From Paraburkholderia caffeinilytica (GTDB taxonomy: Bacteria > Pseudomonadota > Gammaproteobacteria > Burkholderiales > Burkholderiaceae): DNA of 64,000 nt. The stretch lies in the NCBI RefSeq assembly GCF_003368325.1, contig NZ_CP031467.1, positions 1,922,001 to 1,986,000 on the forward strand, read 5' to 3'. The translations under genes and the position numbers were made by a program. The first letter of the stretch is position 1. Each line of letters opens with the position of its first letter. Below are positions 10,174 to 62,735 of this stretch, piece by piece. The notes below the pieces were generated by a model that searched no databases, was not told the DNA's origin, and worked only from the letters and a program-made list of their open reading frames with translations.

Positions 10174-10235
10174 AGCATAGCAGTGGGTCATCCGGGAAAG
10201 CCCCGAAACTAGGGGGAAAACCCGGCTCTATTCAA
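10174..10235 (-). promoter_or_regulatory. Candidate FlhDC-type class II promoter of fliE
   Basis: Read on the minus strand, GAATA (10229-10233) begins the dyad shared with the fliF promoter. A -10 hexamer TATGCT lies at 10174-10179, 57-62 bp from the motif start. The same spacing recurs in five other flagellar promoters in this window. There is no clear -35 box, as expected for an activator-dependent promoter. Confidence 0.6.
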
Positions 10236-10265
10236 GCAATCGGGTTGAGCCGCGCTGCGGATAAT
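10204..10265 (+). promoter_or_regulatory. Candidate FlhDC-type class II promoter of fliF
   Basis: CGAAACTA (10204-10211) and TATTC (10229-10233) form an imperfect dyad. The -10 hexamer GATAAT is at 10260-10265. The motif-to-hexamer distance is identical to that at flhB, flhF and flgA. The expected leader to the fliF ATG is about 85 nt. Confidence 0.65.
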
Positions 10266-13810: not shown

Positions 13811-15504
13811 AGCCGACCCTCGAAGAGATCCGCGCCAGCGATCTGACGCCGCTCGAACGCGAGCTGGCGCTGGCGTCGTTCGGCGCCGAGGCGCTGGCGG
13901 AAGTGCCGGCTGCGGTGACGCCCGCCGCGGCTGCCGTCGCGGCCATCGACGCCGCGCTGCGCGATCAGGGCACCGGGCATCCGCGCGCCGGGAACCCGGC
14001 GAAGGGCGCGGCGAAGGGCGCGGCGGCAAAAGGTGAATCCGCCGCAGCGAGCCGCGAGTCCGCCGCTTCTTCGAAACCCGCTTCACCCCCTCCCGCCCCT
14101 GTTCCGTACGATCCCGCGCTCGACAGCAATCCGCACATGCAAGCCTGGCGCGGCCGGCTCGACGCGCTGCGCGCCCGCAACGCAATCGCCAAGCCGATGC
14201 GCGCTTGCGGACGTCTGACGCGCGCCGCCGGTCTGGTGCTGGAGGCGGTCGGTCTGCGCCTGTCGGTGGGCGCCGAAGTGATGATCGAACTGCCGTTCGG
14301 CAGTTCTCTGCAGATGGCCGAAGCCGAAGTCGTCGGTTTTTCCGGCGACAAGCTGTTTCTGATGCCGACCACCGAAGTGATCGGCCTTCTTCCAGGCGCC
14401 CGCGTGTATCCGCTCGAAAGCGCGCCTATCGCCGATCCGATGGCGGGCGCCAAGCGCCTGCCGGTCGGCTGGGAATTGCTCGGCCGCGTGCTGGACGCGT
14501 CCGGCCGTCCGCTCGACGGCCTTGGCCCGCTCGGCGCGCATGCCGATGCGCCGCTGTCCGCGCCGGTCATCAATCCGCTGAACCGCGAGCCGATTCACAA
14601 GGTGCTCGACGTCGGCGTGCGCGCGATCAACGCGCTCCTGACCGTCGGCCGCGGCCAGCGCATGGGCCTGTTCGCCGGTTCGGGCGTCGGTAAGTCGGTG
14701 CTGCTCGGCACGATGGCGCGCTACACCAGCGCCGAGGTGATCGTGATCGGCCTGATCGGCGAACGCGGCCGCGAAGTGAAGGAATTCATCGAACAGATTC
14801 TCGGCGAGGAAGGTCTCGCGCGCTCGGTCGTCGTCGCCGCGCCGGCCGACGTCTCGCCGCTGCTACGGATGCAGGCCGCGTCGTACTCGACCTCGCTCGC
14901 CGAATATTTCCGCGACCAGGGCAAGCACGTGCTGCTGCTGATGGATTCGCTGACCCGCTACGCAATGGCGCAGCGCGAAATCGCGCTCGCCGTCGGCGAA
15001 CCGCCCGCCACCAAGGGGTATCCGCCTTCGGTGTTCGCCAAACTGCCGGCGCTCGTCGAGCGGACCGGCAACGGCCCGGCGGGCGGCGGCTCGATCACCG
15101 CGTTCTACACCGTGCTGACCGAAGGCGACGACCAGCAGGATCCGATCGCCGATTCCGCGCGCGCGATTCTCGACGGCCACATCGTACTGTCGCGCTCGCT
15201 CGCCGAGGCCGGCCACTATCCGGCGATCGACATCGAAGCGTCGATTAGCCGGGCAATGACCGCGCTGATCGACGATAGACATCTCGAGAAAACGCGTATG
15301 TTCAAGCAAATGCTGTCGCGCTATCAGCGCAACCGCGACCTGATCAACGTCGGCGCCTATTCGAGCGGGCGCGACGCGCTGCTGGACCGCGCGATTGCGC
15401 TGTATCCGCGGATGGAAGCGTTTTTGCAGCAAGGTTTTCGTGAATGCGCGAACTTTGAGCCGAGTCTCGAAATGCTGGACGCTCTGTTTGCCCAAGGAGG
15501 CTGA
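13804..15504 (+). CDS. fliI: Flagellum-specific ATPase FliI (with long N-terminal extension)
   Basis: The protein has 566 residues, about 100 more than typical FliI. Walker A is [15 protein letters not shown]. Walker B and the active site lie in [19 protein letters not shown], followed by [18 protein letters not shown], the export-ATPase signature. FliI energises unfolding and release of chaperone-bound substrates at the export gate. The first ~25 residues ([20 protein letters not shown]) are helical, then a Lys/Ala/Ser/Pro-rich linker of ~75 residues with [11 protein letters not shown] precedes the beta-barrel domain. The start overlaps fliH, so the extension is likely real. Confidence 0.95.
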
Positions 15505-18376: not shown

Positions 18377-18953
18377 TTGTGATGGCGGTGCAATGACGAG
18401 TTACTGCACGGTCGCGAAACGCGAGCATCAAAACGTGGTGGGTAGTTTTATGAAGCAGAACGCGAGATCACAAATGCAGGAGCCGAAACGTAGCGGTGGT
18501 TTTGTGAAGTACGCTTCGGCGCGCGCAGCGCCGCCGGAAGTATGACGCCCTTGTCACTAGCCTATGCAGGTGCACGAACACAGATTCCAGATGCACCACT
18601 ACCCGTTGCGAGCTGCGGGACCCGCTTAGCAGGATCGGTGTGGGCCGCTTTCTCTTGCTTACTTCTCTTTGCGGCGGCAAAGAGAAGTGAGTGCCTGCCC
18701 CGCACAGGGGCGAACGCTAATAGACCACTAACAATTCAAGGAAAGGCACCAAGGCCAGATCAAGAAAAACCCACCGCCGCAGGCAAACACCCAAACAACC
18801 AACAACCGCCGAACAGGCAAAAATCCCAATCCCCCGCCTGAAAGGCAAAAACAAGAGATAGCCCGCAATAACCCTTCTTTTCGACCCATCGCGCCGCAGG
18901 CAAATAAACAACAATCACCATCACCAGCACTAAAGGCAAGCAAAGCAAACCTC

Positions 18954-25084: not shown

Positions 25085-27067
25085 TCACTGGAAGATGCCG
25101 AGTATCGTCTGGAACAGGGTCTGCGCAGTCTGGATGACCTTGCTGTTCGCCTGATAGAGCTGCTGATACTGAAGCAGGTTGGCTGCTTCTTCGTTGATGT
25201 TCACGCCCGAAACCGACTGCTGCGCAGTGGTGATCTGCGTCACCAGCGAGGTCTGTGCCGTGCTCGAGGTCTGAATCTGGTTGGTCTGGTTGCCGACCTG
25301 GTTGACGTAGTTCGCATACGCGCCCGTCAGCGTGACCGTGCCGCCGTCCAATGCCTTCGCCGTGGACAGGTTCGACAACGCCAGCGCGTTGCGGCCGTCG
25401 TTGTTCGCGCCGGTGTTCGGGCCGATGGTGAAGGTGTCGCCGTTAGCCGGTGCGCCGCTGATCGTCACCGTCACGCCGTTCATACTGCCGGCCGTCGCGT
25501 TATTGATCGTCAGCGTCGCGCCGTTGGTCGCCGAGTACGGGATGACGGGCGTCGTGGTGGTGTTGTACGTGGTGGTGGTCGGCGGCGTGCCGGCCGTCAC
25601 CGTCACGGTCGAGTTCGCCGGGAAGCCGGTCAGGCCGGTGCCGTTGTACGACAGCGTGGTGGTGGCGTTCGGCATCGTGTAGCCGGCCGTCACCGTGCCT
25701 TGCGTGATCGTGGCCGTGCCGGTATTGCTCGCCGTTGCGGCGCCGAGTACCGGTGCCGCAGCAGCGATCGCCGACGGATCCGAGGTCGCGGTGTTGAAGC
25801 TGTTCAGCGCGCCACGGGTCGGTTCGACGGTGAACGAATCGCCGGCGTTCATCGTGCCGGTGGTCGAGAAATTCAGGCCGTTGATCGGCTGGCTCAGATT
25901 GGTTGCCGAGCCCACCACGGCGCCGCTCGAATTGTCGGTCAGCGTGTAGGTGGTGCCGTTATAGGCAAGCGTGTAATCGCCGGTGGTCGGCTGCGCGGCA
26001 TTCGCGAACGAGACGCTCAGCGATGCGTTGCCGGTGTTCTGCGTATTCGCGTAGACGGTCGGGCTGCCCACCGAGAACAGCGCGCCGCCCTGGGCGCCGG
26101 CGAGCGTGATGCCGAGGCTGTTCTGCGCGTTGACCTGCGAAGCGAAGCTCACCGCGATCGCGCCGAGTTGCGCTTCGGCCGGATCGAGCGTCTGGCTGCG
26201 GAACGAGAGCAGGCCGCCGAGCGTGCCGCCCGTGACTTTGCTGTCCGGCAGGTCTTGCGGCGCGGCGGCCGGGTTCGCGCCGGCCTGGCCGAGATACTGC
26301 ACCGACAGTTCGCTGGTGTCGCCCGTCGAAGGCGCCGTGCCCAGGTTGTAGCTGTTGGTGGACGACACGAGCGGCTGGCCGTTGCTCATGAACACGCTGT
26401 AGCTGCCGTTGCTGTTCACGACATTCACGCCGATCAGTTGCGACAGGTTCGACACAGCCTGATCGCGCTGATCCATCAGCTGGTTCGGCGGCTGACCTTG
26501 CGAACTCGCCGCGGAGATCTGCCCGTTCAGCTGGGCAATCTGCTGCGTGTAGCTATTGATCTGCGAAACCGTGTTGGAGAGCTGTGTGTTGACGCTCTCG
26601 CGCAGCGAGTCGTATTGCTGACCCGCGGCATTGATCTGATTCACGAGTGTCTGCGCGCCGCTTACCGCCGTCTGACGAGTGGCCAGACTGGAGGCGTTGT
26701 TCGAGACATTCTGCAAACCGGTGAAATAGCTGGTGATCGCGCTCGCAATGCCGGCGGTCGGGCTGCCGATCAGATTGTTCAGCTGCGAGATCATAGTGTT
26801 GTACGCCGACAGCGAGCTGCCCGACGACTGTGCGTTGTTCAGCTCAGTGGTCAGGTACTGGCTGTACTGGCGCGTCACGGTGACGGTCGAGACGCCCTGC
26901 GGCAGATAGCCGGAACCTGTGTACTGGCCGCCGGTTTCGGCGTAGACCGGCGTTTCGATCGTGTAGCCCGGCGTCGACGCGTTGCTGATGTTCTGGCCGG
27001 TCGTCGTGAGTCCCCACTGGGCTGCGTTCAGTCCACTGAGTCCGAGATTGATGAGGTTGCTCGACAT
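25085..27067 (-). CDS. flgK: Flagellar hook-associated protein FlgK (HAP1)
   Basis: The protein has 660 residues. The N-terminus LINLGLSGLNAAQWGLTTTG with NISNASTPGY is the rod/hook/HAP export motif. The C-terminus (GVNINEEAANLLQYQQLYQA) is the matching helix. The middle is low in similarity and Thr/Asn/Gly-rich. FlgK forms the first junction zone on the hook. A canonical sigma28 promoter lies 60-85 bp upstream, so flgKL is a late operon separate from flgB-J. Confidence 0.97.
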   Translation of the reverse strand: MSSNLINLGLSGLNAAQWGLTTTGQNISNASTPGYTIETPVYAETGGQYTGSGYLPQGVSTVTVTRQYSQYLTTELNNAQSSGSSLSAYNTMISQLNNLIGSPTAGIASAITSYFTGLQNVSNNASSLATRQTAVSGAQTLVNQINAAGQQYDSLRESVNTQLSNTVSQINSYTQQIAQLNGQISAASSQGQPPNQLMDQRDQAVSNLSQLIGVNVVNSNGSYSVFMSNGQPLVSSTNSYNLGTAPSTGDTSELSVQYLGQAGANPAAAPQDLPDSKVTGGTLGGLLSFRSQTLDPAEAQLGAIAVSFASQVNAQNSLGITLAGAQGGALFSVGSPTVYANTQNTGNASLSVSFANAAQPTTGDYTLAYNGTTYTLTDNSSGAVVGSATNLSQPINGLNFSTTGTMNAGDSFTVEPTRGALNSFNTATSDPSAIAAAAPVLGAATASNTGTATITQGTVTAGYTMPNATTTLSYNGTGLTGFPANSTVTVTAGTPPTTTTYNTTTTPVIPYSATNGATLTINNATAGSMNGVTVTISGAPANGDTFTIGPNTGANNDGRNALALSNLSTAKALDGGTVTLTGAYANYVNQVGNQTNQIQTSSTAQTSLVTQITTAQQSVSGVNINEEAANLLQYQQLYQANSKVIQTAQTLFQTILGIFQ

Positions 27068-35906: not shown

Positions 35907-36401
35907 TTACGAGCCTGACGTGATCGCCGACAGCATCGTCTTGATCTGGCTCGACAGCACCGTCATGCCCGATTCGAAGTGCAAGGTGTTGTCCGCGAAC
36001 TGCACCCGTTCCGCATCGATGTCGACCGTGTTGCCGTCGAGCGCGGGTTGCGTCGGAATGCGGTACTGCAAATTGCCGTAGTCGTCAGGCGTACCGCCGG
36101 TCGGCGTCAGCGTCGCCTTGCCGGACATGTGGCCCGGCGCGGTCGACACCATCGACATGCCGCTCGTCACCCCTGCGGGCTGCGTCATGGCGAGCGTCGA
36201 GTTGTTCGAGGCGCCCGTGCCCGCACCGCCGCCGGTCTTCTTCAGCGCGCCGGCCAGCGACGAAGCGAAGTCGACGTCGCGCGCCTTGTACCCGGGGGTA
36301 TCGGCGTTGGCGATATTCGACGACAGCAGCTCCTGCCGGTAAGCGCGCACATCGAGCGCCTGGCGGCCAAAGGCGAATTCGGCATCGAGTTTGTCCAGCA
36401 T
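35907..36401 (-). CDS. flgB: Flagellar proximal rod protein FlgB
   Basis: The protein has 164 residues. N-terminal LDVRAYRQELLSSNIANADT with PGYKARDVDFA is the FlgB motif. An insert of Gly/Ala/Asn-rich sequence follows. FlgB connects FliE to the rod. It is the first gene of flgB-J and diverges from flgA; both promoters share one operator. Confidence 0.95.
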   Translation of the reverse strand: MLDKLDAEFAFGRQALDVRAYRQELLSSNIANADTPGYKARDVDFASSLAGALKKTGGGAGTGASNNSTLAMTQPAGVTSGMSMVSTAPGHMSGKATLTPTGGTPDDYGNLQYRIPTQPALDGNTVDIDAERVQFADNTLHFESGMTVLSSQIKTMLSAITSGS

Positions 36402-36500
36402 AGAAATCTCCGGAGAACGTTCCCGAGGCTTCCCGTTTGTGCCGCGCTGTGCCTCGCGCGAGGATTGCGTCGGCCGGGAAGACCTTTTTGCATGAAGTGC

Positions 36501-36563
36501 ATCTTATGGGCCGAACGCAAGTGGCAATCGGACGAATAACCGGGAAAGGGGGCTTCTATTCAA
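36501..36563 (-). promoter_or_regulatory. Candidate FlhDC-type class II promoter of flgB operon
   Basis: On the minus strand GAATA (36557-36561) and TATTC (36534-36538) are a perfect 5-bp dyad 18 bp apart. A -10-like CATAAGAT lies at 36501-36508, at the spacing seen in the other class II promoters (one base offset). The leader to flgB is about 95 nt. Confidence 0.65.
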
Positions 36564-36593
36564 CGTTTGCGCAACGAGGGCGCTCACTAGAAT
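36532..36593 (+). promoter_or_regulatory. Candidate FlhDC-type class II promoter of flgA
   Basis: The same dyad (GAATA 36534-36538, TATTC 36557-36561) read on the plus strand has a -10 TAGAAT at 36588-36593, 57-62 bp from the motif start. The flgA ATG follows at 36629. Confidence 0.7.
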
Positions 36594-36628: not shown

Positions 36629-38164
36629 ATGGACCAACCCACCTTCGATCCGACGCACCGCGCCAGCAGCGCGGCGGCGCATCGCGTGGGTGCGGGCGCG
36701 GTGCGTCGTGCTTCGCGCTGTGCGTCCCGTCTCCTGACGCGCCTCATCGTGAACCTGGCGGTATGGGTCGCCGGCGGCATCGTGCTGCTGCCGGCCACGA
36801 CCCAGGCTCAGCAGGCTCAGGACGCCAGCGGTCCGATCGTGATTCCCGGCCCGGGCGAAAAGAATCCGGCCGCGCTCAACGATCTGGCCGCCCAGATGCA
36901 GGCAACGCCCGCGAAGCGCACGGGTTCCGCGGCAACGCTCGCCGCCGCGACCGCACAGTCGCTGACGCCGGGGCCGGTCGCACGCGACGCCGATCGATTC
37001 ACCCGCGCCGCCAATGCGAGCGGCTCGATCGTCATTCCGGGCGCGGACGAGCCGCCGGCCGCGCCGCAGATGATCCGCACCAGTATCAAACCCGACGCGA
37101 ACGGGGTCGTGACCATTCCCGCGCCGGGAAGCGCCAATGCGACGGCGGCTGCAACTACGCCGGCGGCCGGAACGGCTCGCGTCAATGTGGCGCCGGCCTC
37201 GCGTCAGATCGTGCCGGTCGTGATGACTCCGGCGCCGTCGCTCAATGCCGGGCGGCAAGCTGCCGGCGTGCAGTCCGTCGTCGCCAATGCGCCTGGCGGC
37301 GTCGCGGCGAGCACGCCCACAGCCGGCGGCTTCGACAGTCTTGCTTCGCGCGGCGAGCCGCCGCAACTCGGCGCGAACGGCAAACCCGTTGTGGCCACGG
37401 CAGCGGCCGCGCCGACGCCCGCACCCATGCCGGCACCGCCTGCCACCATCGCCCGCACGCCGGCGATGCGGCAGGTGGCGCCGGCTGTCGCGCAACAGAA
37501 TCTGCGGCCCGCAGCAACGGCGCAACCCGTCCCGCTGGCTGGCCAGCAAGACGCCGAGGCGATCCGCAGTGCGGCGCTCGCCTTCCTGCAGCAACAATCG
37601 GCGGGCTTGCCCGGCAAGGTCGACATCACGGTCGCGCCGGCGTTTCCGCGCGGGCTCGCGGCCTGCACGATGCTCGAACCCTTCATGCCCAGCGGCGCGC
37701 GCCTGTGGGGCCGCATGACCGTCGGCGTGCGCTGCGCCGGCGAACGGCCGTGGACCATCTATCTGCAAGCGCGCATTTCGCTGCGCGCCACCTACTATCT
37801 GGCCGCCCGCGCCATGGCGCCGGGCGAAGTGTTCACGGCCGCCGACCTCGTCGCACGCGACGGCGACTTGACCGGTTTGCCGCAAGCGATCGTCACGGAC
37901 CCGTCGCAGGCGGTCGGCTCGGTGTCGCTCGTGCGGATCGCGGGCGGCATGCCGCTGCGCCGCGACATGCTGAAAAGCGCGTCGGCGGTGTCGATCGGAC
38001 AGACGGTGCGGGTCGTCGCAGCTGGAGACGGTTTCTCGATTTCCGCCGAAGGCAGCGCGATGAACAACGCGTCGCCAGGCCAGCAGGTGCGAGTGAAGAC
38101 GGCCAACGGCCAGATCATCTCCGGCATCGTCAAGGATGGTTCGACGGTGGAGATCCAGTTGTGA
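36629..38164 (+). CDS. flgA: Flagella basal body P-ring formation protein FlgA (enlarged)
   Basis: The protein has 511 residues, over twice the usual ~220-240. A membrane/signal segment lies at about 37-61 (LIVNLAVWVAGGIVLLPATT). A Pro/Ala/Thr-rich region of ~260 residues follows, then the C-terminal SAF/FlgA domain (RISLRATYYLAARAMAPGEV, AVGSVSLVRIAGGMPLRRDM, NGQIISGIVKDGSTVEIQL). FlgA is the periplasmic chaperone for P-ring assembly. The linker contains three motif copies near 67, 131 and 158 (IVIPGPGE, IVIPGADE, VTIPAPGS). The ATG at 36629 follows GGAGTAAC. Confidence 0.93.
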   Translation: MDQPTFDPTHRASSAAAHRVGAGAVRRASRCASRLLTRLIVNLAVWVAGGIVLLPATTQAQQAQDASGPIVIPGPGEKNPAALNDLAAQMQATPAKRTGSAATLAAATAQSLTPGPVARDADRFTRAANASGSIVIPGADEPPAAPQMIRTSIKPDANGVVTIPAPGSANATAAATTPAAGTARVNVAPASRQIVPVVMTPAPSLNAGRQAAGVQSVVANAPGGVAASTPTAGGFDSLASRGEPPQLGANGKPVVATAAAAPTPAPMPAPPATIARTPAMRQVAPAVAQQNLRPAATAQPVPLAGQQDAEAIRSAALAFLQQQSAGLPGKVDITVAPAFPRGLAACTMLEPFMPSGARLWGRMTVGVRCAGERPWTIYLQARISLRATYYLAARAMAPGEVFTAADLVARDGDLTGLPQAIVTDPSQAVGSVSLVRIAGGMPLRRDMLKSASAVSIGQTVRVVAAGDGFSISAEGSAMNNASPGQQVRVKTANGQIISGIVKDGSTVEIQL

Positions 38165-38306
38165 AGCGGCCCGGCGGCGAACCCGGCCGGCCACTCGCCG
38201 GCATGAATCCAGACGCGACAGCCGGCATGGTTGACGCAGAGGATGCCGACCCCGTCGTGGGGCCGGATCGGCTTGAAAGGAAAGGTAAAACCTGGAGCGA
38301 TTGCGC

Positions 38307-38334
38307 TAAAGTTTTGATCAGCGGTTGCCGTTAT
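38307..38334 (+). promoter_or_regulatory. Sigma28 (FliA) promoter of flgMN
   Basis: TAAAGTTT (38307-38314), a perfect -35 match, is followed after 12 bp by GCCGTTAT (38327-38334). It lies 30 bp before the flgM start, giving FliA control of its own anti-sigma factor. Confidence 0.85.
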
Positions 38335-38362
38335 CAGGATCAAATCGTTCAGGAAGCCAATC

Positions 38363-38719
38363 GTGAAAGTCGATTCCACAACCAATTCGAATCTGCCGAC
38401 GTTGAAAGACGCCCTGTCCCGCTCGCAGCAAAGCGACGCGGCGACCGCGAACACCAACGCGCAGAGTGCGGGCACGACCTCGCAGACCACCACCGCCAGC
38501 GGTTCGGGCGACGCCAGCGTCAACCTGTCGGGTCTGTCGCAGCATTTGCGCAGCCTCGCGGCGTCCGGTTCGGCCGACATCGACACGGCGCACGTCGAGT
38601 CGATCAAGGCGGCCATCAAGGACGGCTCGCTGAAGATCGATTCGAGCAAGATCGCCGACGGCGTGCTGAATACCGCGCGCGAACTGTTGCAAAGCAAAAC
38701 CTCGTCGACCGGCAACTAA
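38363..38719 (+). CDS. flgM: Anti-sigma28 factor FlgM
   Basis: The protein has 118 residues and begins at a GTG with AGGAA upstream. It is disordered and Thr/Ser/Ala-rich at the N-terminus. The FlgM C-terminal part is clear: VNLSGLSQHLRSLAASG, ADIDTAHVESIKAAIKDGSL, KIDSSKIADGVLNTARELL. FlgM holds FliA inactive until it is exported through the finished hook. Its own sigma28 promoter closes a feedback loop. Confidence 0.94.
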   Translation: MKVDSTTNSNLPTLKDALSRSQQSDAATANTNAQSAGTTSQTTTASGSGDASVNLSGLSQHLRSLAASGSADIDTAHVESIKAAIKDGSLKIDSSKIADGVLNTARELLQSKTSSTGN

Positions 38720-38813
38720 TCGACGCATCGAAGTACGGTGAATTGCCGGGCGGCATTCGACAAACCCGGCTCGCGAATCACGCGCGAGCCGCTGTGTTCA
38801 GCGAGTTGTTGAG

Positions 38814-39260
38814 ATGAAAGACGCCCTGCTTGCCACCCTCATCGAAGAATATTCGGCCGTCGAGGCGTTCGCCTCGATTCTGACGCTCGAGACCAAGGCA
38901 CTGACCGCCTTGTCGCCGCTGGAACTGCTGCCGCCGATCGTCGAGAAGAAAACCGAACTGATCGGCGTGCTCGCCAGGCTCGAGACCACCCGTGACACGC
39001 TGCTCGCGGAAATGGGCTTCCCGTCCGGCTGGCCCGGCATGGAGCTCGCGGCCAGTGCGGATGCGCGGCTGGCCGCGCAATGGGCGCTGCTGCAAAAAGC
39101 CGCCGAGCGTGCGCGGCGCTTCAATACGAGTAACGGTGAACTGATCCGCGTGCGGATGGACTACAACCAGCGCGCGCTGACGGCGCTGCAGGTGGCCGTG
39201 CCGCAAAAGACCGGTTTCTACGGTCCGGATGGCCGGATTCCCGCGCGTTCCGCAGCCTGA
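38814..39260 (+). CDS. flgN: FlgK/FlgL export chaperone FlgN
   Basis: The protein has 148 residues of predicted helix beginning MKDALLATLIEEYSAVEAFA. The pattern LTALSPLELLPPIVEKKTEL matches beta-proteobacterial FlgN. FlgN escorts the junction proteins FlgK and FlgL. It follows flgM by 94 bp and precedes a strong terminator. Confidence 0.9.
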   Translation: MKDALLATLIEEYSAVEAFASILTLETKALTALSPLELLPPIVEKKTELIGVLARLETTRDTLLAEMGFPSGWPGMELAASADARLAAQWALLQKAAERARRFNTSNGELIRVRMDYNQRALTALQVAVPQKTGFYGPDGRIPARSAA

Positions 39261-41845: not shown

Positions 41846-43802
41846 AGCGGACCTCGTGCAGGTCGGCCGTTGAACGCGCCGACAGCGCGGACAGCAACGC
41901 TGGAATGTCGTCGTCGTGCGGCACGAACGGGGAGTTGTCGCGCGGAATGCAGAACGTGCTCTTGATCAGGAATTTCTTCGTTGCGACGTACAGGTTTTCC
42001 GGCACCTTCTGACCGGTCGACACGTAGTGCACGGGCAACTTGTAGCGGATCACCGTATCGAGCACGCCGCCCAGATTGGTGGCTTCGTCGAGCTTGGTCA
42101 GGATGCAGCCGGCGAGCGGCTGTTGATCCGGCGCGCGCTGATAGGCCTGCACGACTTCGTTCAGCGTATCGCCGTGGCTCGTCGCGTTGAGCAGCAGCAG
42201 ACGTTGCACCGGCTGACCGGCGCGGCACAGCATCGCGATCTGGTCGGAGACCAGACGATCGCGCTGGCTCATGCCGATCGTGTCGATCAGCACGATGTGC
42301 TTGTTGCGCAATTCGGAGAGCGCGAGTTGCAGATCGCCGCCGTCTTTCACCGCGTGAACGGACACGCCGAGAATCTTGCCGAAGATGCGCAGTTGTTCGT
42401 GGCCGCCGATCCGGTAGCTGTCGGTGGTGAGGAGCGCCACCTTGCTGGCGCCGAAGCGCATCACGCAGCGCGCGGCAAGCTTGGCGGTCGTCGTGGTCTT
42501 GCCGACGCCCGTCGGGCCCATCAGCGCGAACACGCCGCCGCGCTCCATCAGCGCGTCTTCGTCTTCCATCACCGGCAGATTCGATTCGAGCACCGAACGC
42601 ACCCACTCCATGCCGCCATCCATGTTGTCGACGTCCTCGGGCAGGTTGTCGACCATCATCTGCACGAGTTGCGCAGAAAAGCCGGCGGCGAACAGGTGCT
42701 TGGTGAGCGCGGCGCGCGCCGGGCTGCGGCGCTGGCGATCGCCCCACAGCAGGCCGGCGAAGTGCTCTTCCATCATCCCGCGCATCGACGACAGCTCGCT
42801 CATGACGGTGTCGTTGACGACCTGCTCCATCCGCGCCTTGATCGCTTCGGCGACCGAAGCGGGCGTGCGGGTGTCGTCGCCGGCAGGCAGCGACGGTGCC
42901 ACTTTCTGAGCTGTGCGGCGCGCGGCGAGTTGCGCGGCTTCGCGAGCCCACTCGGGCGTATCGGTGACTTGCGGCGCGGCCGGTCGGGCAGCGGCCTGTT
43001 GCGAGGCCTGTGAGGTTTCTTGAGCGGCGGGTTCCACGGCGGCGCCGAGGCCCTTGGCCATGGCGGCAGCGGGTGTCATCGCTGCGGGGCGCGCGCTGTA
43101 CGCGCCCTGCTGCTGCTGCTGTTCGGCGGCAATCCGGCGAGCATGGTCGATCAGCCACGGATTCGATTCGGCCATCGTGCGCGGCGCCTGAGCTTCAGCG
43201 TCGAACGCGGCCGGCACGCCGGCGGCTTTGAGCAGATCGGCGCGGATGTCTTCGGTGAGACGCGTCGCGGCAGCGCGGGCGCTGGGCTGCCCTGTGCTGC
43301 CCGATTGCGGCAGCGATGCTGCAGCGGGCGCGGCCAGCGCTGCTCTGGGCGCGTTCGGCAGCGTGGCTTTCGGCGCGGCAGGGACGGTGGCGGACTTCGC
43401 GGCTGAGCCTGAAGCAGCGTTGGCGGTCTGAACCGTGCTAACCGTGTTCGGCGCCATGTTCTCCGCGCCCGCTTCCGGGCTTGCGCCGAACACCGACGAG
43501 AACACATCGGGCATGCCGCTCGCATACGGATTCGCTTGCATCATCGGATTGGCGCGCGGTGCGGCGAGTGCGGGTTGTTGTCCGGCCATGGCATTCATCG
43601 GCGAGGCCAGCGATGCGCCTGCGCTGCCGCGCGGCGCTTTCGGCGTGATGGCGGCGAGCTCGCTGTCGGCCAGGGCGACGATTTCGACGCTGCCGTCGTT
43701 CATCGTGCGATTGGACAAAACGACGGCATCCGGGCCCAAGGCTTCGCGCACGAGACGCAGAGCATCGCGACTGGTAGCACCGACAAATTTACGAATGTTC
43801 AA
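41838..43802 (-). CDS. flhF: Flagellar biosynthesis SRP-like GTPase FlhF
   Basis: The protein has 654 residues, longer than most FlhF (about 400-500). The N-terminus NIRKFVGATSRDALRLVREA is conserved. An Ala/Pro-rich B region of ~300 residues follows. The NG domain has G1 MGPTGVGKTTTTAKL, LLTTDSYRIGGHEQLRIFGK, G3 LIDTIGMSQRD and G4 LTKLDEATNLGG. FlhF places the flagellum at the pole and recruits the first basal-body parts. The start is a TTG at 43802 with GGGGG upstream; an in-frame GTG at 43829 is less likely. Confidence 0.93.
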   Translation of the reverse strand: MNIRKFVGATSRDALRLVREALGPDAVVLSNRTMNDGSVEIVALADSELAAITPKAPRGSAGASLASPMNAMAGQQPALAAPRANPMMQANPYASGMPDVFSSVFGASPEAGAENMAPNTVSTVQTANAASGSAAKSATVPAAPKATLPNAPRAALAAPAAASLPQSGSTGQPSARAAATRLTEDIRADLLKAAGVPAAFDAEAQAPRTMAESNPWLIDHARRIAAEQQQQQGAYSARPAAMTPAAAMAKGLGAAVEPAAQETSQASQQAAARPAAPQVTDTPEWAREAAQLAARRTAQKVAPSLPAGDDTRTPASVAEAIKARMEQVVNDTVMSELSSMRGMMEEHFAGLLWGDRQRRSPARAALTKHLFAAGFSAQLVQMMVDNLPEDVDNMDGGMEWVRSVLESNLPVMEDEDALMERGGVFALMGPTGVGKTTTTAKLAARCVMRFGASKVALLTTDSYRIGGHEQLRIFGKILGVSVHAVKDGGDLQLALSELRNKHIVLIDTIGMSQRDRLVSDQIAMLCRAGQPVQRLLLLNATSHGDTLNEVVQAYQRAPDQQPLAGCILTKLDEATNLGGVLDTVIRYKLPVHYVSTGQKVPENLYVATKKFLIKSTFCIPRDNSPFVPHDDDIPALLSALSARSTADLHEVRFG

Positions 43803-43865
43803 GCTGGACCCCCGATGAGGTATACGCACTAACGGACCGGCAACATACCGCTTCCCATTGAGATC

Positions 43866-43927
43866 ATTATTGCGAAACCCGTCGAGTGACGATCGATGGA
43901 TAAAGACCGTTAAAGGTGGGCAATTCG
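43866..43927 (-). promoter_or_regulatory. Candidate FlhDC-type class II promoter of flhF operon
   Basis: On the minus strand CGAATTG (43921-43927) and TTATCC (43898-43903) are at the same spacing as at flhB. The -10 is AATAAT (43866-43871), 57-62 bp from the motif start. Beyond the operator, CGATCGTC and a TCTCA-TGG block are also shared with the flhB promoter. Confidence 0.65.
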
Positions 43928-44060
43928 GGCGATGGAAACGCGCCGCAAGTCACGTGCTGGGCGGTTTTAAACGGGCTCGCCGCACTCGCCGGGCGGGGCT
44001 TCCGCGGACGGAGCATGACGCTGGCCAGCCGCTTGCGGCGCGAAAAGTTAGGCGCCGAAA

Positions 44061-46247: not shown

Positions 46248-47467
46248 GCGGAGGCTCCTGGAGCGTCGTCGTTATCTGGGTTATTGGCAGAATTAAGCAC
46301 GTCGGCGGCCTCCTGCTCGGCGTCATCGTCCGATACGCCGCCCTTGTCGAGATCCGCCGGCACGTCGAACTCGGTCGGTGCGACCGGCGCGACGCCGCCT
46401 TCGGTATTGAAACGCCGCAACTGATACACCCACGCGAGCACCTCGGCGACCGCGCCATAGAGCGGGCCGGGAATCTCACGGTTCAGATCGACGTTGTGAT
46501 ACAGCGCACGCGCGAGCGGCGGCGCTTCGAGCAGCGGCACGTTGTTTTCGGCGGCGATTTCGCGAATTCGCGCGGCCACCAGGTTCACGCCCTTGGCGAC
46601 CACCTTCGGTGCGCGCATCTCGCCGTCGGTGTACTGCAGCGCGACCGCGAAGTGCGTCGGGTTGGTCACCACCACGTCGGCCTTCGGCACCTGGGTCATC
46701 ATGCGACGGCGAGCGATGGCGCGCTGCTGCTGGCGAATCCGGCCTTTCACGTGCGGATCGCCTTCGCTTTCGCGGTGTTCGCGCTTCACTTCTTCCTTCG
46801 TCATGCGCAGTTTCTTGTGGAACTGCCAGAGTTGATACGGCACATCCAGCGCGGCCACCACAAACATGCCCGCCACCGTCATGCCGCAGCACACCGCGAT
46901 CAGATGCATAGTGTTGGCGAGCGCCAGTTGTAGCGGCTGGGTCGCCAGCGCGAGAATTTCCTCGCGGCGATTCCAGATCGCCGTGCCGCCGATGCAGCCC
47001 ACCACCAGCGTCTTCGCGAGCGACAGGCCGAGCTGAACCGGTCCGTTGATCGAGAATATCTTGCCGAGCCCTTCGATCGGATTCAGCCGGTTGAACTTGG
47101 GCTCGAGGCCTTTCGAAGACAACTGCCAGCCGCCCAGCGCCATCGGCGCGAGCAGGGCGGCGGCGCCGGTGAAGCCCAGAACCGGCAGCAGCGCGTACAG
47201 GCCTTCGCGGCTCGCGGCGCCCGCGCCGATCAGCATGCGGCGGGTTTCGAATACGGTGGCGTGGTCGAAGGTGAAGGACGAGCGCAGCATGCCTTGCAGA
47301 TGCTCGCCGATGCTGCCGGACATGCCCCATACGCCGAAGAATCCCGCGGCCAGTAGCGCAAACGTCGACAGCTCCCGCGAACGCACGATCTGCCCTTCCT
47401 CCCGCGCCTTTTGCAGGCGCCGGGGAGTGGCTGATTCGGTTTTTTCGAGGTCGCTATCCTCTGCCAC
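46244..47467 (-). CDS. flhB: Flagellar export switch protein FlhB
   Basis: The protein has 407 residues from a GTG at 47467, with GGAG 7-8 bp upstream. The N-terminus AEDSDLEKTESATPRRLQKA is the FlhB hallmark; an upstream extension is Arg-rich and not conserved. Four membrane helices are followed by the autocleavage motif VVTNPTHFAVAL and APKVVAKGVNLVAARIREIA. FlhB changes export specificity on FliK contact. It is first in flhB-flhA. A fragment paralogue, FlhB2, lies at 6865-7230. Confidence 0.96.
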   Translation of the reverse strand: MAEDSDLEKTESATPRRLQKAREEGQIVRSRELSTFALLAAGFFGVWGMSGSIGEHLQGMLRSSFTFDHATVFETRRMLIGAGAASREGLYALLPVLGFTGAAALLAPMALGGWQLSSKGLEPKFNRLNPIEGLGKIFSINGPVQLGLSLAKTLVVGCIGGTAIWNRREEILALATQPLQLALANTMHLIAVCCGMTVAGMFVVAALDVPYQLWQFHKKLRMTKEEVKREHRESEGDPHVKGRIRQQQRAIARRRMMTQVPKADVVVTNPTHFAVALQYTDGEMRAPKVVAKGVNLVAARIREIAAENNVPLLEAPPLARALYHNVDLNREIPGPLYGAVAEVLAWVYQLRRFNTEGGVAPVAPTEFDVPADLDKGGVSDDDAEQEAADVLNSANNPDNDDAPGASA

Positions 47468-47516
47468 AAACGCTCTCCAGTCGGCTGAGGCACGGCGCCT
47501 CTTTCCAGTGAGAGCG

Positions 47517-47578
47517 ATTATTCCCGTTCGACGCAAGCGACGATCGGCGGATAAGGGCGGGGAAAGGGGGGTATTTCG
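47517..47578 (-). promoter_or_regulatory. Candidate FlhDC-type class II promoter of flhBA
   Basis: On the minus strand AAATA (47572-47576) and TATCC (47549-47553) are the dyad, separated by 18 bp. The -10 AATAAT is at 47517-47522. AAATA equals the enterobacterial FlhDC half-site core. The remaining part of 47579-47801 shows no gene. Confidence 0.7.
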
Positions 47579-47801
47579 AGCGATGGGGCGGCCGGCAAGC
47601 GACGTGGCGAGGCTTACCGGCTGGGCCGGGGTGGTTCCGCCGAGGCGATGGGGCGTGGGCTAGGCGTGTGCCTCGCAACCGGCGGCAAGCCGAACGCATT
47701 CGCCAGCGGCTGACGGGCCGGCTGCGGTACGCAATCTCAGCTACGGTCAGCGGACACCCGCGTCGAATCGCGCGGGTGCCCAGCTGGTTCCTACGTGTGC
47801 G

Positions 47802-61802: not shown

Positions 61803-62363
61803 TCAAATTTCGAGCGCGACGAGGCTTTCGCGGGCCCGGGCGTCGGCAAATTTCTTTGTCTTACCTGCACGCGACGGCGGCTGGCACAGCCCACAGACGA
61901 AGGCGTGCTGCGGGTCGTGGGCATGCGCGACAAAATGTCCGCTGCACCGGCAGCAGGCGGTCATTTGCAGCATCCCGGAGTCGAAGAAGCGCACCAGCGT
62001 CCAGGCGCGCGTGAGACTGAGCACGGGCTCGTCGTCGTGCAACTGGACATGTTCCAGATAAAGGCGGTAGCTCTTCACGATCGACTGGATCGTCAAACAG
62101 CCGCCGTGATCGGCCATGAAACGGTAGATGTTGTAGAACAGCGACGAGTGAAAGTTCGGCTGCCAGGTCATGAACCAGTCAGTCGAAAACGGCAACATGC
62201 CCTTGGGCGGGGACACCCCTTTCAATTCCTTGTACAGCTTGATCAGCCGGTCGCGCGACAGGCTGGTTTCCGCTTCCAGCAATTGCAGACGCGCACCGAG
62301 TTCGATTAGCTCGATGGCGAGGGTGATTTCCCTGACTTCCTGCACAACGCTTTTATATGCCAT
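61803..62363 (-). CDS. flhC: Flagellar master regulator subunit FlhC
   Basis: The protein has 186 residues, the usual size. The N-terminal EITLAIELIELGARLQLLE and the TDWFMTWQPNFHSSLFYNIY stretch are highly conserved in FlhC. The zinc-binding Cys cluster is CCRCSGHF and CGLCQPPSR. With FlhD it forms FlhD4C2, which activates class II promoters. It follows flhD by 51 bp. Confidence 0.97.
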   Translation of the reverse strand: MAYKSVVQEVREITLAIELIELGARLQLLEAETSLSRDRLIKLYKELKGVSPPKGMLPFSTDWFMTWQPNFHSSLFYNIYRFMADHGGCLTIQSIVKSYRLYLEHVQLHDDEPVLSLTRAWTLVRFFDSGMLQMTACCRCSGHFVAHAHDPQHAFVCGLCQPPSRAGKTKKFADARARESLVALEI

Positions 62364-62414: not shown

Positions 62415-62735
62415 TCAGCTAAGTTGCTCGACTGGCTGGCTGGCCATCAGGATCGCGGAATGCGCCTGAGCCACGGCGCTGGACTTGCCTTTGTCCGCCA
62501 GGGCGGACAGCACGGCATGGTCATCGAAACGGAAACGGCACAGCACCTGATTGGATGCCGCCAGCTTCACGGTCTGTGCCAAAGACAGATTGGCGAGCAC
62601 GTCGGCCAACTGGTCCGAAATCCCCATGCGAAACATGCCCATCGGCTTGTCTTCGCGCAGCAGACGCTGGGCGAGCAGGAGATAAGACAGGTTGACTTCT
62701 CTGATCTCATTGAGCATTTCGCTTGTCGCGCTCAT
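62415..62735 (-). CDS. flhD: Flagellar master regulator subunit FlhD
   Basis: The protein has 106 residues, beginning MSATSEMLNEIREVNLSYLL, with LLAQRLLREDKPMGMFRMGI and LANLSLAQTVKLAASNQVLC. FlhD is the dimeric partner of FlhC. GGGGGAA is 5-6 bp before the ATG at 62735; the longer frame reaching 62936 lies in the leader and is not conserved. First gene of flhDC. Confidence 0.96.
   Translation of the reverse strand: MSATSEMLNEIREVNLSYLLLAQRLLREDKPMGMFRMGISDQLADVLANLSLAQTVKLAASNQVLCRFRFDDHAVLSALADKGKSSAVAQAHSAILMASQPVEQLS

Follow-up and report, generated by a model that had tools for sequence, protein, structure and literature searches.

A conserved, probable FlhDC class II operator at a constant distance from the -10 hexamers of flagellar promoters in a Paraburkholderia genome

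Flagellar genes of the window and the flgA/flgB intergenic region

The window, a stretch of 64,000 nucleotides (C2:1922001-1986000; positions on the contigs are written in this form), belongs to an 8.3-Mb genome of three contigs. Its FlgC shares 97-99% identity with the FlgC of Paraburkholderia aspalathi, domus, and fungorum, which places the genome in Paraburkholderia. The family search of the window returned fliE, fliF, fliG, fliI, fliJ, fliL, fliM, fliN, fliQ, and fliR, as well as flgC, flgB, fliA, flhF, flhA, flhB, motB, and motA, while flgN gave a match below threshold only. An FlhG-like ParA/MinD protein is also encoded, and flgA and the remaining flagellar genes are named from their position. 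The flgB gene (35907..36401, minus strand) was recognized by TIGR01396 with an E-value of 2e-31. The flgA gene (36629..38164, plus strand) is the open reading frame ending at 38164, with a start codon of our choice; for another frame at the same locus, 36763-38817, the family search gave no match.

The window also contains flhD (62415..62735, minus strand, 106 aa), identified by PF05247 (E 2.5e-42) and matching the solved chains 8j56_A and 1g8e_A, and flhC (61803..62363, minus strand, 186 aa), identified by its matches to the solved chains 8j56_C (E 6.2e-76) and 2avu_E (E 1.1e-70), in agreement with an earlier note on this DNA according to which FlhDC itself is encoded here. The closest solved relative of both proteins is 8j56, followed by 2avu for FlhC and by 5hxg and 1g8e for FlhD. 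We take 8j56 to be the FlhDC of Cupriavidus necator, and the study of that structure reportedly examined the binding of promoter DNA too. A second complete flhD-flhC pair is located at C1:910556, in a 3.3-kb locus with no visible flagellar gene, and a lone short flhD at C1:1509055; many related genomes have 2-5 flhD matches.

The dyad GAATA-N18-TATTC spans positions 36534-36561, between the divergent flgB (36401, minus strand) and flgA (36629, plus strand), as the earlier note had stated, and the exact pattern has a single copy within the window. It forms the core of a longer box (36524..36571) common to the two promoters, which obtains the highest matrix score of the window, 34.7, and an E-value of 8.8e-4 genome-wide with the R1 model described below. 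The -10 hexamers are TAGAAT for flgA (36588..36593, plus strand) and TAAGAT for flgB (36501..36506, minus strand). The fixed spacing put forward in the earlier note holds, but not its value of 57-62 bp, the start-to-start distance from the GAATA core being 54 bp for flgA and 55 bp for flgB. A genome-wide search for GAATA-N17-19-TATTC finds 5 places, only 1 of them in the flagellar cluster, compared to 3 for the reversed control pattern. The literal dyad is therefore near chance level and is no useful definition of the operator, and it would not pass the test of specificity set in the earlier note.

The region upstream of flgB was aligned in 81 rows, consisting of this genome and, out of 329 relatives, the best 80, most of which are Paraburkholderia or Caballeronia (the consensus covers all rows, of which 20 are displayed). 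Both half-sites, both -10 hexamers, and the spacer are conserved in this alignment, while the outer flanks drift. Over the 79 distinct anchored sequences, the mean information amounts to 1.93 and 1.78 bits at the -10 hexamers of flgA and flgB, respectively, and to 1.61 and 1.71 bits in the half-sites. The spacer between the half-sites (1.58 bits), the gap on the flgB side (1.25 bits), and the 13 bases past the flgB -10 (1.5 bits) are conserved too; the gap on the flgA side is lower, at 0.81 bits, and the outer flanks are lowest, at 0.65 and 0.68 bits. Conservation among these relatives extends to a CATGCAAAAAGG block on the minus strand at 36483-36494, in the flgB leader shortly after the -10.

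The full box and its distance to the -10 hexamer

A matrix for the full box of ~48 bp was obtained from a search in other genera that was seeded with eight half-sites from this window, so that its training is not wholly independent, and it was then rebuilt from 86 boxes (172 half-sites) with the own genus excluded. The five best scores in the window all fall at flagellar promoters, and the sixth is 16.4, at position 26723; in a Markov null of 60 sequences of 64 kb, a single match reached 22.4, the lowest of the flagellar scores. For an Infernal sequence model, R1, 40 of the 86 boxes were used, each entered in its two orientations, which gave 80 rows. With 150 of 2562 first-look candidates scored, it gave 16 places in the genome at E <= 10, of which the best five are flhB, flgA/flgB, fliE/fliF, C1:2396160, and flhF, that is, four flagellar boxes out of five.

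After flgA/flgB, the highest matrix score, 31.7, is that of the flhB box heading the flhBA operon (47540..47587, minus strand), which is also the top R1 match of the genome (E 2.2e-5) and is followed by AATAAT at offset 55 (47517..47522, minus strand). The box of flhF-flhG-fliA (43889..43936, minus strand; score 28.9, rank 3; R1 E 0.02 genome-wide), found in some genera only, likewise precedes AATAAT at offset 55 (43866..43871, minus strand). The box shared by fliE and fliF (10195..10243; score 25.5, rank 4; R1 E 0.013 genome-wide) has GATAAT at offset 55 on the fliF side (10260..10265, plus strand) and TATGCT at offset 54 on the fliE side (10174..10179, minus strand). The fifth-ranked box, upstream of fliL (18845..18892, plus strand), scores 22.4, with a weak distal half contributing 4.4 bits, and the -10 table scan places AACAAT at offset 55 (18910..18915, plus strand). 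It is only ninth in the R1 scan of the 150 scored candidates (E 0.37), below a site internal to fliI and two unexplained sites. The fliL boxes were outside the training set of the matrix, and a box of at least 18 precedes 26 of 30 fliL loci, this genome counted, the other four scoring 4.8, 11.4, 16.1, and 17.4. The fliI-internal site (15235-15274; R1 E 0.12, matrix score 15.7), which has a -10-like hexamer at offset 54, was taken as a chance match.

According to the earlier note, six promoters share the operator, with the layout of flgA/flgB repeated at fliE, fliF, flhB, and flhF. The promoters named do share it, and fliL had been overlooked; what recurs is not the literal dyad, which has two mismatches each at fliE/fliF, flhB, and flhF, but the degenerate box of ~48 bp at the same distance from the -10. 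The cores are 18 bp apart at flgA/flgB, flhB, flhF, and fliL, and 19 bp apart at fliE/fliF. Of 30 family genomes, this one counted, 24 provided a usable region for fliE/fliF, 30 for flhB, and 24 for flhF; corresponding boxes are found across them at fliE/fliF and flhB, and only in part at flhF.

The -10 hexamers were scanned with a textbook sigma-70 table over offsets 33-89, and were never part of the training. In the window, all seven promoters have offsets of 54-55. Outside this genome, 322 box-promoter pairs have a box of at least 18, and the best -10 lies at offset 54-56 in 319 of them (flgB 119/120, flgA 120/120, fliF 21/21, fliE 19/21, flhB 29/29, and flhF 11/11), compared to 4.3% of 4060 random placements. 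These loci share descent, the distinct sequences numbering 88 for flgB (as 75-mers), 20 for fliF, 29 for flhB, and 11 for flhF, and loci with a box below 18 were left out (flgB 9/129, fliF 2/23, flhB 0/29, and flhF 12/23). The nine flgB loci with no box of at least 18 within 330 bp comprise five from genus g24, one with a score of 17.4, one with 4.4, and two from genomes lacking FlhD. In the five g24 loci a box is located further upstream, with scores of 13.5-21.1, one of them reaching 18. In the 80 family genomes, a FlgB match is present in 50, and 47 of these also have an FlhD match. Two genomes of one genus (G064 and G074, both 100% complete) have neither an FlhD match nor a box at flgB, while in G038, with a completeness of 70%, the flgB box is present and an FlhD match is absent.

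The flhF box was followed in 30 FlhF loci. It is present in 6/6 loci of this genus, 5/5 of g10, and 3/3 of g14, and missing in 5/5 loci of g12 and 5/5 of g25. The remaining genera contribute six loci, three of which (L203-L205) extend past the flhF start, L205 by 138 bp only, and have no box there; L206 and L207 barely reach the promoter or do not reach it, and L208 is not a true FlhF (E 3.8e-11). The internal class II promoter before flhF-flhG-fliA therefore looks lineage-specific. The flhF promoter (43802-43936) and the flhB promoter (47467-47587) are identical at 56 of 105 positions, the highest value of 21 promoter pairs within this genome, the others having 27-49; the former may be a copy of the latter, a reading that is suggestive only.

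Reading of the box as an FlhDC operator

The box can be compared with those of E. coli, for which the class II FlhDC consensus is given as AAYGSSNNAAATAGCG-N10-12-CGCTATTTNNSSCRTT in PMC9962212, and a base-specific form as ANNAN18TNWTN6WT in PMC12888815. The latter has 11 matches in the window and fits flgA/flgB on both strands, and it does not fit fliE/fliF, flhB, flhF, or fliL. The matrix was also run on E. coli K-12, where the highest-scoring box of each intergenic region was used. The scores are low, 8.7-18.9, and in one region the two best places lie inside motA and motB; R1 recovered the fliA site alone from 45 kb of E. coli. Shared features are the inverted half-sites with AAATA/GAATA cores 16-18 bp apart, a box in the flgA/flgB intergenic region and another in that of fliE/fliF, and the distance to the -10, which in E. 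coli is at offset 54 for seven of eight promoters (flgB, flgA, fliF, fliE, fliA, fliL, and fliD). The eighth, flhB, has a weak box of 8.7 and its best -10 at offset 70. The differences concern the core, which in the window is GAATA rather than AAATAGCG, or GAATA-like and thus one base off AAATA, the outer part, which is closer to CAATCGG, and the core distance of 19 bp at fliE/fliF, one above the E. coli range. Furthermore, flhF has its own box here, unlike in E. coli, and fliA, which overlaps flhG, has none.

Acidovorax delafieldii is another member of the Burkholderiales. FlhDC boxes are described for it upstream of flgA, flgB, flhB, fliE, fliF, and fliL, with a motif of 34 bp, and fliA has the box there, whereas here it is flhF (PMC12888815). 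Among the matches listed in our literature search, no title or abstract dealt with FlhDC boxes in Paraburkholderia. The element is thus a conserved FlhDC class II operator of a family that has already been described, and not a new model; the published work is refined here in two points, the exact distance that is conserved and the presence of a box at flhF. The earlier note had proposed both an FlhDC class II operator at a constant distance from the -10 and its novelty: the former is supported by the other-genera matrix, the conservation, and the comparison with E. coli, and the latter is not supported, the box being known already from E. coli and Acidovorax.

Taken together, the box sequence, its conservation, the spacing, and the presence of flhD and flhC argue strongly that the boxes serve FlhD4C2 as operators at class II flagellar promoters of the sigma-70 type, a reading to which we assign a probability of about 0.93. 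We infer binding and activation, and likewise polymerase recruitment and the transcription starts, by analogy with E. coli FlhDC, which is reported in PMC4183435 to be necessary for the recruitment of the sigma-70 polymerase at its promoters. The operator would consist of two inverted half-sites with a consensus of approximately CAATCGGnCGAAWARA, their GAATA-like cores 18-19 bp apart. The promoter-proximal half-site would cover the -35 position, with the -10 starting 54-55 bp from the distal core, and FlhD4C2 on the box would direct the sigma-70 RNA polymerase to the -10 in place of -35 recognition. At flgA/flgB and fliE/fliF a single box could fire in both directions, because it is symmetric and both -10 hexamers are equally distant from it.

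Two other explanations have to be weighed. The dyad might be a chance palindrome and the common layout a product of pattern-seeking, and the bare dyad, judged from the counts given above, is indeed not enriched near flagellar genes. However, the whole block is conserved in the 81-row alignment, the matrix from other genera ranks the flagellar boxes on top, and the -10 spacing holds even though the hexamer was absent from the training, which makes a coincidence very improbable. It could also be that a regulator other than the FlhDC of the window uses the box, for example the pair at C1:910556, and the genome does hold this second complete flhD-flhC pair in addition to the lone short flhD. But the box is a rough match to the consensus for FlhDC in E. 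coli and a close one to the spacing there, and the cluster's own flhDC adjoins its targets; we therefore consider this alternative unlikely, if somewhat less so than coincidence. Both pairs might also share the box.

With the boxes read as operators of the window's FlhDC, the geometry of FlhDC promoters in the Burkholderiaceae would differ from that in E. coli by no more than 1-2 bp, and a box with a -10 at 54-56 would provide a sharp rule for reading FlhDC regulons where ChIP data are absent. Three candidates emerge from this rule: an RNA that FlhDC may control, a TPR-like protein gene following fliD-fliT, and a gene whose product has a lytic-transglycosylase domain.

Box sites beyond the flagellar cluster

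Fifteen of the 16 R1 places were rescored with the matrix, giving eight of at least 18 and seven lower ones. The best -10 is at 54-56 in at least one direction at all eight of the former and at two of the seven latter. The eight are the flagellar boxes among the five best-ranked R1 places, the fliL box, and the sites C1:3413860, C2:1998175, and C1:2396160. For sites outside the flagellar cluster it should be kept in mind that in E. coli the motif, even if bound in vitro, is insufficient for binding in vivo, as stated in PMC4183435.

At C1:3413860-3413905, a box of 25.3 is followed by TAAACT at offset 55. The unit that follows, with the box in the region C1:3413860-3414460, has a conserved 5' region of ~75 nt that contains a hairpin with a C-rich loop (ACGCGG-UCUUCCCC-CCGCGU). 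Its middle is rich in GCAGTA, and an intrinsic terminator lies at about +520. A blastn search with 261 bp of it detected the unit in 12 out of 20 congeneric genomes. All ten loci retrieved have the -10 at offset 55, with box scores of 15.2-27.2. In nine of them a terminator follows at a distance of 298-592 nt, and an ATG-initiated ORF of more than 50 aa is absent from all ten. A 35-aa ORF beginning with MERQ was rejected as a gene, its frame being broken by indels between loci. A model of the RNA part alone, built from the ten loci, was then searched in 150 family genomes and gave matches in 15 at E <= 0.01. In 13 of these the box is at the same place with a -10 at offset 55, and 11 of the 13 have the terminator; nine belong to this genus, three to g14, and one to g25, and three were already among the model loci. 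Their box scores range from 12.1 to 25.8, four being below 18. The other two matches (E 0.0019 and 0.0044) have no box.

For the unit itself (C1:3413935), Rfam gave nothing at the gathering score in the five of ten loci searched at E <= 1, and the two matches below gathering were both elsewhere in their loci. A stable fold was dismissed as support, with z-scores of -0.07 and -0.28, and in the consensus fold no pair is changed on both sides and the covariation term is unfavourable; the case for the RNA therefore rests on the promoter, the conservation, and the terminator. These suggest that FlhDC probably drives a conserved non-coding RNA directly in Paraburkholderia and its relatives, a reading whose probability is slightly lowered by the four boxes, out of the 13, with scores under 18. 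No title or abstract among the literature matches listed concerned an FlhDC-driven small RNA in this group. If the reading is correct, the class II tier would comprise a small RNA along with the structural genes, and the C-rich loop could pair with ribosome-binding sites.

The box at C2:1998175-1998220 scores 18.2, with a -10 at 54-55, and is located between fliD-fliT and a gene for a protein that appears TPR-like by eye. Its counterpart in genome G020 scores 20.7 with a -10 at 54. Our guess is that the TPR-like protein could be a flagellin-modification enzyme. The box at C1:2396160-2396204 scores 30.0, with TAAGCT at offset 55, and lies upstream of a gene for a protein in which a signal-like start is combined with the L domain of soluble lytic transglycosylases (SLT_L).

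R1 places outside the cluster occur in five congeners too. Seven stretches were taken, one being that of C1:2396160 in this genome, two carrying the RNA unit, and four covering other R1 places. Two of these four, box-like sites at G055:C109 and G040:C13 outside the flagellar clusters of two congeners, score 20.7 and 19.7, respectively, and have a -10 at 55. The score of the other two is 7.1, and a -10 at 55 is present in one of these.
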